A stretch of 54,688 nucleotides of DNA from Chloroflexota bacterium (GTDB lineage Bacteria > Chloroflexota > Anaerolineae > Promineifilales > Promineifilaceae). Position 1 is the stretch's first letter. Each line of letters starts with the position of its first letter. The stretch lies in assembly GCA_022616275.1 (NCBI GenBank), contig JAKEFB010000149.1:1-54688 (forward strand). Reading direction: 5' to 3'. A program made the translations under genes and the position numbers. The notes under the pieces were generated by a model. That model was not told the DNA's origin. It was given only the letters and a program-made list of their open reading frames with translations, and ran no database searches. This document shows positions 18,070 through 37,090 of this stretch, in pieces.

Positions 18070-18075
18070 ATATTA
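18070..18075 (-). promoter_or_regulatory. -10-like box for the hybrid kinase
   Basis: TAATAT on the minus strand, 44 bp before the kinase start. The -35 position at 17-bp spacing reads GCCACT and overlaps the last repeat of the 11-bp array, as expected for an activator-dependent promoter. Confidence 0.4.
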
Positions 18076-18096: not shown

Positions 18097-18136
18097 GCTA
18101 TCAAACAGCTATCAAACAGCTATCAAACAGCTATCA
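18097..18136 (-). repeat. 11-bp direct-repeat array, four units (operator candidate)
   Basis: On the minus strand TGATAGC occurs four times at exactly 11-bp spacing (plus-strand GCTATCA at 18097, 18108, 18119, 18130). Three units are the perfect TGATAGCTGTT; the fourth ends CACT. It lies 70 bp upstream of the histidine-kinase start. The same heptamer and period recur at 21006-21067. Confidence 0.95.
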
Positions 18137-18177
18137 ATTCAGGAGAAAGGCGGGGGACGGTCTGGCTGCGACACCCC

Positions 18178-18278
18178 CTATTCAAGGGGAAGCTGCGCCA
18201 GCCAGCGTTCGGCATTGGCTGGCGCAGTCGGCGTAGCACCTGCTGCCAGTGGGTGCGGTCCGAAATTGCGTGATTCAC
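18178..18278 (-). pseudogene. Decayed 5' fragment of a TPR-gene paralogue
   Basis: Read from GTG at 18278 the fragment encodes VNHAISDRTHWQQVLRR, matching MNHVISEQTYWQQVLRR at the start of the intact TPR gene (19541). After a frameshift it continues APANAERWLAQLPLE and stops at 18178, matching the SQANAQYWLTLLE segment. DNA identity in the aligned part is roughly three quarters by eye. It lies between the intact TPR gene and the 11-bp array, so an older copy of the STAND/TPR module once stood upstream of the kinase. Confidence 0.8.
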
Positions 18279-18335
18279 GCTTCAGCTTAGGAACAGGAGG
18301 TGGTTAACCTGACCGGAGCCAGACTATTGAATTAG

Positions 18336-19541
18336 TTAGTCAGGAGGAAGTTGATCTAGCCGGCGGCGCATGGTAGTCAGCAGCTCGTCACAGTGGGCAC
18401 CATCATTAGCCGTTTCCAGCCGGGCTATTGCCTCCTGTAGCACCCGGCGAAAGATGGCCGTGTCACCTTTGGCTTCGTATAGGTCAGCCAGATTATCCAT
18501 TGAGTTCGCCCACTGATACGTGCTACCTGAAAACTCATAAATAGCCAATGCCTGTCTCAACATTTCCTCAGCCACCGCCCACTCCCCCAGTTTGGTGTAA
18601 ACCATTCCCAGGTTGTTATAAATGGCGGCCTGCCCTCCAGGTTCTTGAAGCTGAGAATTTAGACGCAGCGCCTCTTGCCAGGCTGCTTCGGCCGTCAGGT
18701 AATGGGTCTGTTTATAGGCAATTACTCCCGAACCAATCCGGAGAGTTACCAAAGTCTGTAAATCATTTAATTGCGTGGCTATACCTATAGCCTCGTGGAT
18801 AACATTGGTTGCCCTTTCCCATTCCTGCAACCAGATCAAATTATTTGCCATGTTTGTCAGCGCCTTGAGCATAAAGGGGTAGTTATTAACGTTCTTGAAA
18901 TAGAGGTGGGCTCGCTGGGCTGATGCTAAAGCCATTGGCCATTCTCGCATCTGAAAATAAATTATTGACAAACTTAGGTTAATTTGAGCTGTCATCAATT
19001 CATCATTTATTCTCTTGCTTACTCTCAGAGCCTCCTGACATAGGTTGATGGCCTGCGTCGCCTGCCCCTGGCTACCATACAAAGTGGCTAGCTTGGACAA
19101 AGTATTGGAGTAACGAGACAGGTTACCCTGTTCTAAATAATTAGCTATACTGGTTCGAAACGCATCTGCAGCTCCCTTGAAATCTCCTTTTTGAACCAAG
19201 AGGTCACCGGTTAAGTCAATCAAACGGGCCTCTTCAGAGGTATATCCCAGCTTCTGGCTAACCGTCAGGGCCTTTTGCAAATAAACCAGCCAGCGGTCCC
19301 AGTCGCCGGCGTTGTAAGCTGACATGTAGAGCACATCAAGCAAGCGATAAAGCAGGTTAAAAGCGGTTTCATCTTGCAGCAAAATTTCTACTGCACGTAG
19401 CAGGCTGTCATAGTGGGCAACGATCAACGCGGCCGGATCAGTAGTATCTTCTAGTAATGTCAGCCAATATTGAGCGTTGGCCTGGCTCTGCCGGCGTAGT
19501 ACCTGTTGCCAGTAAGTCTGTTCAGAAATCACGTGGTTCAT
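18336..19541 (-). CDS. Tetratricopeptide-repeat protein (C-terminal half of a split STAND module)
   Basis: Protein of 401 residues made of helical tetratricopeptide repeats, with recognisable units such as AIYNNLGMVYTKLGEWAVAEEML, LSRYSNTLSKLATLYGSQGQ and WANSMDNLADLYEAKGDT (written across separate repeats). No catalytic motif, signal peptide or membrane segment is seen. The start at 19541 is chosen because its ATG overlaps the NB-ARC stop by 4 bp (ATGA); a longer in-frame extension to 19658 would overlap the upstream gene by 120 bp. In most STAND proteins NB-ARC and TPR are on one chain; here they are two coupled genes. A decayed copy of its 5' end lies downstream. Confidence 0.88.
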   Translation of the reverse strand: MNHVISEQTYWQQVLRRQSQANAQYWLTLLEDTTDPAALIVAHYDSLLRAVEILLQDETAFNLLYRLLDVLYMSAYNAGDWDRWLVYLQKALTVSQKLGYTSEEARLIDLTGDLLVQKGDFKGAADAFRTSIANYLEQGNLSRYSNTLSKLATLYGSQGQATQAINLCQEALRVSKRINDELMTAQINLSLSIIYFQMREWPMALASAQRAHLYFKNVNNYPFMLKALTNMANNLIWLQEWERATNVIHEAIGIATQLNDLQTLVTLRIGSGVIAYKQTHYLTAEAAWQEALRLNSQLQEPGGQAAIYNNLGMVYTKLGEWAVAEEMLRQALAIYEFSGSTYQWANSMDNLADLYEAKGDTAIFRRVLQEAIARLETANDGAHCDELLTTMRRRLDQLPPD

Positions 19542-20959
19542 TCTGGAGCAAACATCCTCAGTAAAAACACTTCTGTCAGCCGGTGCAGGCGATAGCGCCG
19601 TTCCATTAGTGTACCGCCCAAGTCTACCAGCGATAGCAGAATTAATTCCTCGAGGCACTCCTGTAACGTGGTCTCAGGCAACCTAGTAATAGCCACCAAA
19701 TGTTCAAGCGTAAAGCCACTTTCGCCGGCCTGGGTCAGCGCCAGGAGCGTTTCTTTGCTTTTGTCTCCCAGCGTTTCCCAGATTTCGCGGTAAATATAGT
19801 CAAACAGCCCTTCCTGGTCGGCCGCCCGGCTGCCGGCAAAGCGGGCCAGCACCTGGGGCAGAGAGTGAAAACGCAACTGGCCAATAGTCAGCTTCAAGGC
19901 TAATGGATTGCCGCCAACGGTGTCGTAAATCTGCTGGAGATCGGCATCGCCGGCCATCTCCAGTTCCCGAAAACCAGCTCGTTTGGCCTCCAGCCGGATT
20001 AACTCAAAAGCGGCAGCCGGCGATAGTTCCCGCAGTGACAGGGAATACACGTCCGGCTCGTCCAGCAGCCGGCGGCGCGACGTCAGTAAGAATTTGCTGG
20101 GGTCCTGCCACTGCCGCAACTCCGGCAGCAGGCTGTGGTAATCGGCCGCCGTCTCCAGGTTGTCAATGACCACCAGGCAGGCGTTTTCCCGTAAATATTG
20201 TTTGACTTGCCGCTGGCGCCCCAACTGGGAGCTGCCACCGGCCGGTAAATCAAACTGGATCACCAGCTCGTCCAGGAGCATGGGGAAGGTCAGCGCTGGC
20301 CGGCCGCTCTCCACCTGCAAGCGGCCCATGGCCGAGAGGTGGGTCTGCTTGGCCGTTACCCAGGCCACGTCGTCAAAACGGCGGGTGTGCAGCAGGTCGC
20401 GCACCGTTTGGTCAGCCAGCGCCGTCTTGCCGATGCCGCCAATCCCATCAATGGCGGCAAAAAAGCTGCCTGTCTCATCTACCAGCCGTTCCAGCAGCAC
20501 CGCCCGTGCTTCTTCTACCCCGACCAGGCGGGTGTAGGACGGCACCGCCAACCTGGTCGCCATCCGCTCCTGCCAGGTGGCACTGGCCTCAGCCTCCAGG
20601 GCCAGCAAAATCTCCGTCAACTGGGCCACGGCCTGCCGTTGGCGGTAATGGAGGGTTGGTTCGGCAATATTCAGGCTGTTGGCGATGGCCATGACGCTAC
20701 GCCGCTGCTCAAAGCGCTCTCGCAGCAGGTCGTGCGCTTCTGGGCCGGTGTCTTGCAGGACGGCCAGGGCCCGGTTGAGCACCGCCCGGTTGCGGGCCGC
20801 CGGTCCAGCCCCGGCCAGCGTCTCGTAATTTTCCGCCTCGCGGGCCACTTGCAGGGTCAGGCGTAGGTGGGCCAGTGGCCAGGCGGCCGGTTCGCCGCCG
20901 TGCCACAGCCGCAGCGCCTCCAACACTTCGTCCGGGCTTATTGCCTGTATCGTCGCCAT
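19538..20959 (-). CDS. NB-ARC (STAND) ATPase with N-terminal HTH
   Basis: Signal-transducing ATPase of 473 residues. Residues about 75-115 (LLRERFEQRRSVMAIANSL ... LHYRQRQAV) look like a sigma-region-4-type helix-turn-helix. The NB-ARC core has the P-loop GIGGIGKTALA, Walker B ACLVVIDNLE, the arginine-bearing LLTSRRR and the GLPL-like GGNPLALKL. A winged-helix segment closes the protein (LEHLVAITRLPETTLQECL). The sensor repeats expected at the C-terminus are supplied by the coupled TPR gene. There is no Shine-Dalgarno; TATAGT lies 6 bp before the ATG, so the mRNA may be leaderless. Six 11-bp repeats lie just upstream, where a -35 would be assisted. Role: probably ligand-dependent switch or transcription regulator; ligand unknown. 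Confidence 0.88.
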   Translation of the reverse strand: MATIQAISPDEVLEALRLWHGGEPAAWPLAHLRLTLQVAREAENYETLAGAGPAARNRAVLNRALAVLQDTGPEAHDLLRERFEQRRSVMAIANSLNIAEPTLHYRQRQAVAQLTEILLALEAEASATWQERMATRLAVPSYTRLVGVEEARAVLLERLVDETGSFFAAIDGIGGIGKTALADQTVRDLLHTRRFDDVAWVTAKQTHLSAMGRLQVESGRPALTFPMLLDELVIQFDLPAGGSSQLGRQRQVKQYLRENACLVVIDNLETAADYHSLLPELRQWQDPSKFLLTSRRRLLDEPDVYSLSLRELSPAAAFELIRLEAKRAGFRELEMAGDADLQQIYDTVGGNPLALKLTIGQLRFHSLPQVLARFAGSRAADQEGLFDYIYREIWETLGDKSKETLLALTQAGESGFTLEHLVAITRLPETTLQECLEELILLSLVDLGGTLMERRYRLHRLTEVFLLRMFAPE

Positions 20960-20965
20960 ATTCAG

Positions 20966-20971
20966 ACTATA
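20966..20971 (-). promoter_or_regulatory. -10 box for the NB-ARC gene, probably leaderless
   Basis: TATAGT on the minus strand, 6 bp before the ATG at 20959. The -35 position at 17-bp spacing reads ACTCAC, a poor match, and the 11-bp repeat array begins about 11 bp further upstream. This is the layout of an activator-dependent promoter. Confidence 0.5.
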
Positions 20972-21005
20972 CCCCTACCAGACAGAGTGTGAGTGACTGC
21001 CAAAA

Positions 21006-21071
21006 TGATAGCTGATTGATAGCTAATTGATAGGACTTTGATAGCACCTTTATAGATCGTTGATAGCTGTT
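21006..21071 (+). repeat. 11-bp direct-repeat array, six units (operator candidate)
   Basis: Heptamers start at 21006, 21017, 21028, 21039, 21050 and 21061, exactly 11 bp apart: TGATAGC, TGATAGC, TGATAGG, TGATAGC, TTATAGA, TGATAGC. The 4-bp spacers differ (TGAT, TAAT, ACTT, ACCT, TCGT, TGTT) but all end in T. Conserved heptamers with drifting spacers point to selection on protein contacts, one per helical turn. The array lies between the divergent NB-ARC gene and secreted-peptide gene. Confidence 0.95.
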
Positions 21072-21236
21072 TTCTGTTACCCTCCTCGTTACGTGCGCAC
21101 CTTAACACAGATTTTTACAAATTACAAAAAGTGAGCCTGGTAGATGTTTCATGAGAGGCCAACGCCATTCCAGTCGCTGGCCGGGGCCCCCGTTTACGCT
21201 GGCTCTCCATTCACTTACGGGAAAGGAGAACCTACC

Positions 21237-21935: not shown

Positions 21936-21994
21936 CGCCAGTTTGGGATGACTACAAGCGGTTAGCACATCTCTGGTGGAGGACCACTTCCTAC

Positions 21995-22039
21995 GTAAAA
22001 CGCGAGGCTCCCCTTGGCGCAACCAGCCTCGCGTTTTAC
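21995..22039. terminator. Bidirectional terminator between DJ-1-like gene and folA
   Basis: Perfect 15-bp arms GTAAAACGCGAGGCT (21995-22009) and AGCCTCGCGTTTTAC (22025-22039) with a 15-nt loop. T-runs occur at the end of each arm in both directions. The folA stop codon (22038-22036) lies in the right arm. Confidence 0.8.
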
Positions 22040-22548
22040 ATTTTCCAGGCGGCGCGCCGCTCGTACGTGACAAAAGTATAGGTATAGGGGTTTTTCTCGT
22101 CTGGCGGGTGCGCCTCGCGGGCGACTTCCTGCCATTGGCCGGCGTCGAAGGCCGGGAAGCAGGTATCGCCCTCGAAGACGGCGTCAATAAACGTCAGGTA
22201 GAGGCGGTCGGCCCTGGCCAGCAGCGCTTCGTAGAGGACAGCTCCCCCACCAACCATCACCTCGCCGTCCGCCCCACTATAAGCCGCGGCCGTGGCCAGC
22301 GCTTCATCTACCGAGTGGACGACAAGGCAACCCTCGGCCTGGTACTCTCTGTCCCGGGTGACGACGATATTGGTCCGGCCGGGCAGCGGCCGGCCAATAG
22401 ATTCGTACGTCTTCCGCCCCAGGATCAGGGGTTTACCCATCGTCAATGCCTTAAAGCGCTTCGAATCAGCCGGCAGCCGCCAGGGAATCTGGTTGTCCCG
22501 CCCAATGACCCGATTCACATCCATCGCCGCAATCAGCGCCAGCCGCAC
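22036..22548 (-). CDS. folA: Dihydrofolate reductase
   Basis: DHFR, which reduces dihydrofolate to tetrahydrofolate with NADPH; 170 residues, normal length. It starts MRLALIAAMDVNRVIGRDNQ, followed by IPWRLPAD (substrate loop), then GRKTYESIGRPLPGR (NADPH site) and VMVGGGAVLYEALL, the second Gly-rich cofactor motif. The end reads YTYTFVTYERR. It follows thyA on the same strand with a 102-bp gap holding two micro-repeats. ThyA makes dihydrofolate, which this enzyme recycles. Confidence 0.96.
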   Translation of the reverse strand: MRLALIAAMDVNRVIGRDNQIPWRLPADSKRFKALTMGKPLILGRKTYESIGRPLPGRTNIVVTRDREYQAEGCLVVHSVDEALATAAAYSGADGEVMVGGGAVLYEALLARADRLYLTFIDAVFEGDTCFPAFDAGQWQEVAREAHPPDEKNPYTYTFVTYERRAAWKM

Positions 22549-22582
22549 AAATCCTCCCGCGCCTTCACACCACCCTCCCTAC

Positions 22583-22647
22583 CCAATCTCTAATCTCCAA
22601 TCTCCAATCTTTCCAACCATCTAATTACCCAATTACTGAATTACCCC
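22583..22647. repeat. Two adjacent micro-repeats between thyA and folA
   Basis: A 7-bp array (CCAATCT, CTAATCT, CCAATCT, CCAATCT; 22583-22610) is followed 10 bp later by an 8-bp array (CTAATTAC, CCAATTAC, TGAATTAC; 22621-22644). Each belongs to a different family seen elsewhere in the window. Confidence 0.85.
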
Positions 22648-36999: not shown

Positions 37000-37090
37000 G
37001 TTTTATCTGCCATGATTGAACCATGATAGCGCCGCTCTGGCAAGCCGGAGTAGCATCGCCTCCTCATTTGAGATTTCTTTCACAATATAC

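Follow-up and report, generated by a model that had tools for sequence, protein, structure and literature searches.

The locus and its two repeat arrays

The stretch of DNA considered here (the window, 54,688 nucleotides in full) is positions 1 to 54,688 of contig JAKEFB010000149.1 from a Chloroflexota bacterium (Anaerolineae; Promineifilaceae; assembly GCA_022616275.1). It contains a locus in which two genes, encoding a STAND protein with helix-turn-helix (HTH) and NB-ARC domains and a tetratricopeptide repeat (TPR) protein, lie between two arrays of the heptamer TGATAGC repeated every 11 bp (Table 1). The function of these arrays and the protein that may bind them are the subject of this report. 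Array 1, as an earlier note on this sequence had described it, consists of four exact units on the minus strand (4/4, starting at 18130, 18119, 18108, and 18097), with the same spacer, TGTT, standing between them all three times. That note had also counted six TGATAGC units in array 2; six units at the 11-bp period are indeed present on the plus strand (starting at 21006, 21017, 21028, 21039, 21050, and 21061), but only four of the six are exact, unit 3 being TGATAGG (one mismatch) and unit 5 TTATAGA (two). The spacers of this second array were said to drift around a constant final T, and reading them (TGAT, TAAT, ACTT, ACCT, TCGT) bears this out. Matches to TGATAGC-N4-TGATAGC with up to two mismatches number nine in the window compared with 0.16 expected; eight fall in the arrays and one at 37013. 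The genes downstream are the hybrid kinase gene for array 1 and the peptide and DJ-1-like genes for array 2, which faces away from the NB-ARC gene; these orientations, also remarked on earlier, are the same in relatives.

Table 1. Genes and sequence elements of the locus, in window coordinates
Feature	Position	Strand	Basis or remark
Hybrid histidine kinase, HATPase_c + receiver, 370 aa	16911..18023	-	ATG start assumed
-10-like TAATAT, 21 nt after last TGATAGC of array 1	18070..18075	-	21-nt rule
Array 1: four TGATAGC units, 11-bp period	18097..18136	-	Points to histidine kinase; sequence read, kinase-side counterparts in relatives
TPR protein, 401 aa	18336..19541	-	ATG overlaps NB-ARC stop (ATGA)
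HTH-NB-ARC (STAND) protein, 473 aa	19538..20959	-	PF00931 5.6e-14; P-loop GIGGIGKT
Sigma-region-4-like HTH of NB-ARC protein, ~residues 78-117	20609..20728	-	Sub-threshold matches and alignment; proposed DNA-binding part
Array 2: six units, 11-bp period	21006..21067	+	Points to peptide and DJ-1-like genes; orthologous arrays in relatives
Candidate extended -10 TGT-TACCCT	21075..21083 (hexamer 21078-21083)	+	21 nt after array 2 unit 5
Small peptide, 71 aa	21237..21452	+	N-terminal hydrophobic stretch, C-terminal Cys pair
DJ-1/PfpI-like protein, 153 aa	21474..21935	+	Domain match 1.5e-11

Conservation of the arrays and the locus in the family

Orthologs of the NB-ARC protein (56-66% identity) occur in 24 of the 52 other genomes of the family, and 23 of the 24 loci were examined, G002 being left out because its gene is split between contigs. 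The 300 nt upstream of each ortholog were scanned for periods of 8-15 with a four-unit mismatch score. Period 11 was the best in 22 of the 23, with a mean mismatch of 8.6 compared with 19.9-22.0 for the other periods. Read away from the NB-ARC gene, the heptamer is mostly TTTGYAG or TTTGAAG in the orthologous loci, TTGATAG in the host of the window, and TTTGNAC-like in six loci of one genus; the kinase-side array of L184 holds both TTTGTAG and TTGATAG units. Across arrays, spacer bases are far less conserved than the heptamer, with the caveat that positions 1-7 are biased by unit selection.

The order of features in the family is DJ-1-like gene, small peptide gene, array, HTH-NB-ARC gene, TPR gene, array, and soluble histidine kinase gene, such that the arrays bracket the NB-ARC/TPR pair on both sides and face outward in relatives as in the window. 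The TPR gene follows the NB-ARC gene in 23/23 ortholog loci, and a histidine kinase lies downstream in 20/23 (L189 stands at a contig end, and L183 and L190 gave no match). A divergent DJ-1-like gene is likewise present in 20/23, the misses being L183 (contig end), L187 (sequence cut short), and L190 (no match); L156, a longer copy of L187, carries both the DJ-1-like and peptide genes. Between the array and the DJ-1-like gene, 21/23 loci (22 counting L156) encode a small protein that has both a hydrophobic stretch on the N-terminal side and a C-terminal cysteine pair; the cysteines are missing in L194. Among the 22 loci with enough sequence after the TPR gene, period 11 is the best for the kinase-side array in 15 and period 10 in six, some of these calls being at background score.

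The earlier note had argued that the arrays are operators under selection, which agrees with a heptamer, position, and orientation kept in the family and with a fixed -10 distance (see below). Whether relatives keep the genes and lose the spacing had been set beforehand as a test; the 11-bp spacing is kept, and the operator interpretation was not refuted.

A fixed distance to a -10-like hexamer

Promoter geometry was assessed in 55 arrays (50 from relatives and five from the host) at offsets of 5-44. A TAnnnT hexamer stands exactly 21 nt past the last heptamer in 36 of the 55, and no other offset exceeds 7. When near copies were removed from the 50 arrays of relatives, TAnnnT was found at 21 in 19 of 33 (runner-up 5), compared with a maximum of 7 in 2000 shuffles; the extended -10 positions of those 19 carry G in 15 and T in 12. 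In the TGATAGC register, the hexamer at offset 21 is TAATAT for array 1, TATCCT for an array on host contig C78, and TATAGT for one on C135, and an array on C230 has TATAAT at 20. The earlier proposal that the promoters have a -10, TAATAT for array 1, is supported, and its distance from the array is fixed. The TATAGT given in the same place for array 2 sits on the NB-ARC side; on the peptide side, toward which the array points, TGT-TACCCT fits best. No TAnnnT hexamer stands 21 nt after unit 6 of array 2, and the candidate in Table 1 is placed from unit 5.

In many arrays an additional weak unit, recognized by eye, ends 10-11 nt before the -10. Judged from these sequences, an array with a fixed 21-nt gap to the -10 is the layout predicted for an activator that replaces the -35 contact. 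The motif rule (array, 21 nt, TAnnnT) is usable for finding further targets.

Arrays and their downstream genes across genomes

The host assembly searched comprises 8.53 Mb in 309 contigs. In the whole genome there are eight exact TGATAGC-N4-TGATAGC pairs and none of the reversed pattern, while three-unit TGATAG chains with at most one mismatch gave 13 matches in five arrays compared with 0 in the control. At three mismatches the counts are 18 and 11 (control), so the weaker chains are uninformative. Two of the five arrays are those of the window, and C78, C135, and C230 hold one each. All of them sit between larger called genes and are oriented such that TGATAGC reads in the direction of the following gene; an 80-aa frame lacking support overlaps the C230 array. 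A genome scan for runs of at least three units had also been set beforehand as a test, and the arrays it returned are not randomly placed, 5/5 facing a downstream gene. Outside the window, C78 has a large GAF/PAS hybrid kinase in this position, C135 has a protein that matched no Pfam family and is membrane-anchored as judged by eye, and C230 has an OmpR-type response regulator (Trans_reg_C 8.7e-17).

Among the 99 genomes searched, TGATAG triples (at most one mismatch) occur in three, host included, and the match in G086 is an array directly upstream of an NB-ARC homolog. Triples of TTTGNAG, at the same mismatch limit, occur in 13 of 53 family genomes, with one match overall for the reversed pattern. 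They are present in 12 of the 24 genomes with an NB-ARC ortholog and in 1 of the 28 without one (Fisher p 2e-4, kinship ignored); in the exception, G039, the contig opens partway through the TPR gene (54% identity) and continues with the array and then the kinase gene.

Eighteen further array regions were taken from relatives, one of which (G039) is the locus itself, and the nearest downstream frame was scanned in eight. These frames encode a nucleoside hydrolase, two SpvB-domain proteins, a WD40-like propeller, a lone receiver, an EAD7 protein, and two proteins without a match, and some of the downstream frames begin several hundred bp from the array. Together with the two kinases and the response regulator of the host, these make signalling genes a recurrent class among the predicted targets. 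Concerning individual regions, the arrays of L250 and L263 precede a large SpvB-domain protein, one of them also with an RHS repeat; the EAD7 protein (L265:2849-3829) is the next frame, 529 nt past its array; and in L264 and L266 a shared array and promoter stand ahead of genes that look alike and have no Pfam match.

The NB-ARC protein and its homologs

The N-terminus of the NB-ARC protein gave weak matches to sigma-70-ECF in 9/13 orthologs and to Sigma70_r4 in 7/13; the sigma-70-ECF match of the window protein spans the last third of the model. A search of the NB-ARC profile against solved structures returned no credible match. Residues of the recognition helix appear to go with the heptamer (36 of 65 rows scored): A/G is found with GAKAG in 10/11 and other residues with TTTGNAS in 22/25, and an SRS helix variant pairs with TTTGNAC in one genus.

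The arrays extend beyond the family. A class-level search covered 397 genomes, and all 24 listed homologs from other families (37-43% identity) were taken. Upstream of these, TTGAKAG chains occur in 9/24 at a score of at least 5 and in 12/24 at a score of at least 4, compared with 0/480 and 3/480 in a mononucleotide shuffling of the same regions; the consensus was fixed after inspection of the class-level sequences. A DJ-1-like gene lies within about 1.2 kb in 16/24 of these loci, and a TPR gene is directly adjacent in 17/24.

More distant paralogs have arrays of another kind. Loci were taken for 17 of the 26 listed matches at 41% identity or less, and upstream of these paralogs (33-38% identical) a period of 10 scores best in 15/17, many of them having core words different from those of the 11-bp arrays (L202-L218). 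A period score of 17 or less was reached by 10/17, compared with 9/182 control regions from the same loci. These controls are not clean for period 11, because 15 of them score 13 or less at that period and at least one is a kinase-side array (L182). The surroundings are similar, with a DJ-1-like neighbour in 15/17 paralog loci (three weakly) and a TPR gene directly next in 17/17. In a tree made free of the HTH, the starred branch splits the paralogs (10 with 10-bp arrays, seven unclear, and none with 11-bp arrays) from the rest (32 with 11-bp arrays, five with 10-bp arrays, and 11 unclear), and array type changes six times over the tree.

Which protein binds the arrays

We predict that the STAND protein, whose gene lies between the two arrays, uses them as operators for activation, and would put the probability of this at roughly two in three. 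The STAND protein is the best candidate for the binder because of its co-occurrence with the arrays, the arrays of its distant homologs, the different period of its paralogs, its HTH matches, and the helix/heptamer pairing.

Several results count against this prediction. A TAnnnT hexamer at 21 nt is missing from 19 of the 55 arrays, and the -10 of array 2 is weak. In the NB-ARC direction the promoter has no fixed -10 distance (best 6/23 orthologs), so that NB-ARC autoregulation is unsupported; hence, of the regulon drawn up in the earlier note, the kinase, peptide, and DJ-1-like genes stand, with their conserved layout around the arrays, and the NB-ARC gene as a target does not. The HTH matches of the window protein fall below curated cut-offs (best ortholog E-values 1.6e-4 and 0.004), and single-sequence AlphaFold models of the full-length protein and its N-terminal part, with a mean pLDDT (predicted local distance difference test) of 44 and 48, were unusable. 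The helix/heptamer link is suggestive only, because it comprises three to five independent pairs and lacks significance once kinship is taken into account. Scores below 4 were found for 12/24 of the listed distant homologs, 7/17 paralogs have no clear period, and the co-occurrence statistic takes no account of kinship. The TGATAG match in G020 lies in a genome without an NB-ARC ortholog. Finally, a regulator encoded elsewhere in the genome and distributed in the same way might be the binder instead.

The alternative that survives best, which we nevertheless consider unlikely, is that an unlinked winged-helix activator of the SARP/BTAD or OmpR/PhoB type binds the arrays and that the NB-ARC locus is merely one of its targets. 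According to PMC10936776, 11-bp direct repeats are typical of SARPs, and PMC4832192 gives 7-bp motifs with a 4-bp spacer for PhoP; there are also 30 BTAD matches in the host genome. However, 0/30 of these are on the four array-bearing contigs, the 8-bp SARP gap to the -10 is replaced here by 21 nt from the last heptamer, and arrays adjoin the NB-ARC gene across the family and also for 9-12 of the 24 listed distant homologs, with the paralog clade differing in period. The SARP/AfsR-type activator favoured earlier is not retained, since the -10 spacing differs and no BTAD match lies on the array contigs. The same note had itself pointed out that the distance is unlike that of classical SARPs and that no SARP gene lies in the window, both of which are correct.

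Repression, or a role in DNA structure, for arrays that are still linked to the NB-ARC protein seems improbable. The repeats do extend as far as the -35 region, and a protein bound there might block polymerase, but the constant 21 nt to a -10-like hexamer, often with TGn, and the position of the array upstream have the appearance of a promoter with a recruited activator.

Still less credence is given to the orphan OmpR-type response regulator of C230 as a binder that regulates itself. It was first favoured for its own array, which lies 140 bp upstream of its gene and is followed by TATAAT at nearly the usual interval (20 nt in the TGATAGC register), and was dropped because its relatives are rare and the arrays common: at E 1e-34 a relative was found in 1/52 other family genomes (G043, 40%), whereas the arrays are widespread, and no 11-bp array occurs in the 600 nt upstream of the G043 relative. 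An orphan pair of OmpR-type response regulators (L029:829-1524 and L124:4386-5054, 47% identical, the first with an atypical receiver by eye) is nearly absent from relatives, and strong 14-bp repeat periods occur upstream of two distant OmpR-type regulators (L042, L056).

Replication slippage giving rise to minisatellites can be set aside almost entirely, as the identical spacers of array 1 and the many perfect tandem copies among TTGATAG arrays of other phyla have to be weighed against heptamers kept while spacers drift, a position and orientation conserved in the family, and a fixed -10 distance. Triples of TTGATAG-N4 in other phyla were found in 61 genome stretches (L063-L123) and seven viral contigs, counts that have no control-heptamer baseline. 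A hidden Markov model of NB-ARC, with a positive control included, matched nothing at E 1 in those 68 stretches (each up to about 15 kb), and these arrays were therefore treated as unrelated. Many of them are perfect 11-bp minisatellites; those of L085, L087, and L114 are degenerate and face an inverted copy, as though they belonged to a larger palindromic element.

Proposed mechanism and products of the locus

If the STAND protein is the binder, a signal would be sensed via the separate TPR protein, upon which the NB-ARC protein would swap ADP for ATP and then oligomerise. Its sigma-4-like HTH domains would dock adjacently on one helix face, one per 11-bp unit, and the protomer nearest the promoter would recruit RNA polymerase, substituting for the -35 contact. 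The targets would be the peptide and DJ-1-like genes on one side and the kinase gene on the other; in the host, the second hybrid kinase (C78), the OmpR-type response regulator (C230), and the protein of unknown family (C135) would be further targets. Our guess, drawn from the MalT partners MalY and Aes, is that the DJ-1-like protein keeps the switch off. It is a tentative and rather doubtful suggestion that the module amounts to self-contained cell-cell signalling, with the small Cys-pair peptide as an exported signal precursor, a TPR and HTH-NB-ARC pair serving as a split NLR-like receptor and transcription factor, and arrays closing a positive loop on the peptide, the DJ-1-like partner, and the kinase.

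The products themselves offer some indications. The overlap of the TPR start with the NB-ARC stop suggests translational coupling, and the small peptide, with its hydrophobic N-terminal stretch, may be exported, as judged by eye. The DJ-1-like sequences appear by eye to lack the usual nucleophile cysteine, at what we take to be its position, and a binding role is therefore likelier than catalysis. No sensor domain of the hybrid kinase was matched in the domain scan, and a generic TPR model was the sole match in a defence library. The DJ-1-like gene is immediately followed, on its own strand, by a 205-aa frame without a family match (21976-22593). A tRNA-Asn predicted at 20322-20417 falls within the coding sequence of the NB-ARC protein and is most likely false.

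Bacterial NB-ARC proteins are relatives of the plant and animal NLR receptors, and to our knowledge many of them have no known output. A literature search gave no description of the module among the titles listed. Here, the output of the regulator would be readable from the DNA, with one unit per helical turn, a fixed promoter distance, and few genes per genome, and the signal, receptor, and targets thereby become directly testable.

Comparison with known systems

Three known systems resemble this locus in part. Like PhoP/PhoB sites, the module arrays are direct repeats of 7-bp motifs separated by 4 bp (PMC4832192). The array-adjoining C230 regulator, the sole regulator checked, differs in that it does not travel with the arrays. 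Classical PhoP/PhoB sites often have two units and sometimes more.

The SARPs, among them AfsR of Streptomyces, combine, as presented in PMC10936776, an OmpR-type DNA-binding domain with a BTA domain and bind promoters with 11-bp direct repeats and a weak core, the 3' repeat lying 8 bp from the -10; AfsR has NOD and TPR domains in addition. The module has in common with them the NOD and TPR domains of AfsR, the weak promoter core, and direct repeats at 11 bp, SARP repeats being spaced by 11 or 22 bp. It differs in the 21 nt to the -10, although in many arrays a further weak unit, seen by eye, comes to within 10-11 nt of it. Neither BTAD nor Trans_reg_C was matched in the NB-ARC or TPR protein by the domain scan.

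MalT of E. coli is the nearest precedent, both for cooperative occupancy of several boxes following multimerisation and for regulation through partners. According to PMC4381067 and PMC10427625, this ATPase of the STAND class has a TPR-variant sensor, multimerises, and binds cooperatively to several boxes at its target promoters, four sites being present in a pulAp-like promoter; MalY, Aes, and MalK hold it off. The module resembles it in having an NB-ARC/NOD ATPase with a P-loop and several direct-repeat sites at the inferred target promoters. It differs in that the TPR part has its own, overlapping gene, that the putative DNA-binding HTH is N-terminal and sigma-4-like whereas MalT binds DNA via its C-terminal domain, that four to six repeats stand in tandem at 11 bp, and that peptide, DJ-1-like, and kinase genes belong to the locus as well. 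Because the TPR part is encoded separately, the NB-ARC protein is not classed with the single-chain MalT type; by analogy, the STAND pair would instead work like a MalT in two pieces.

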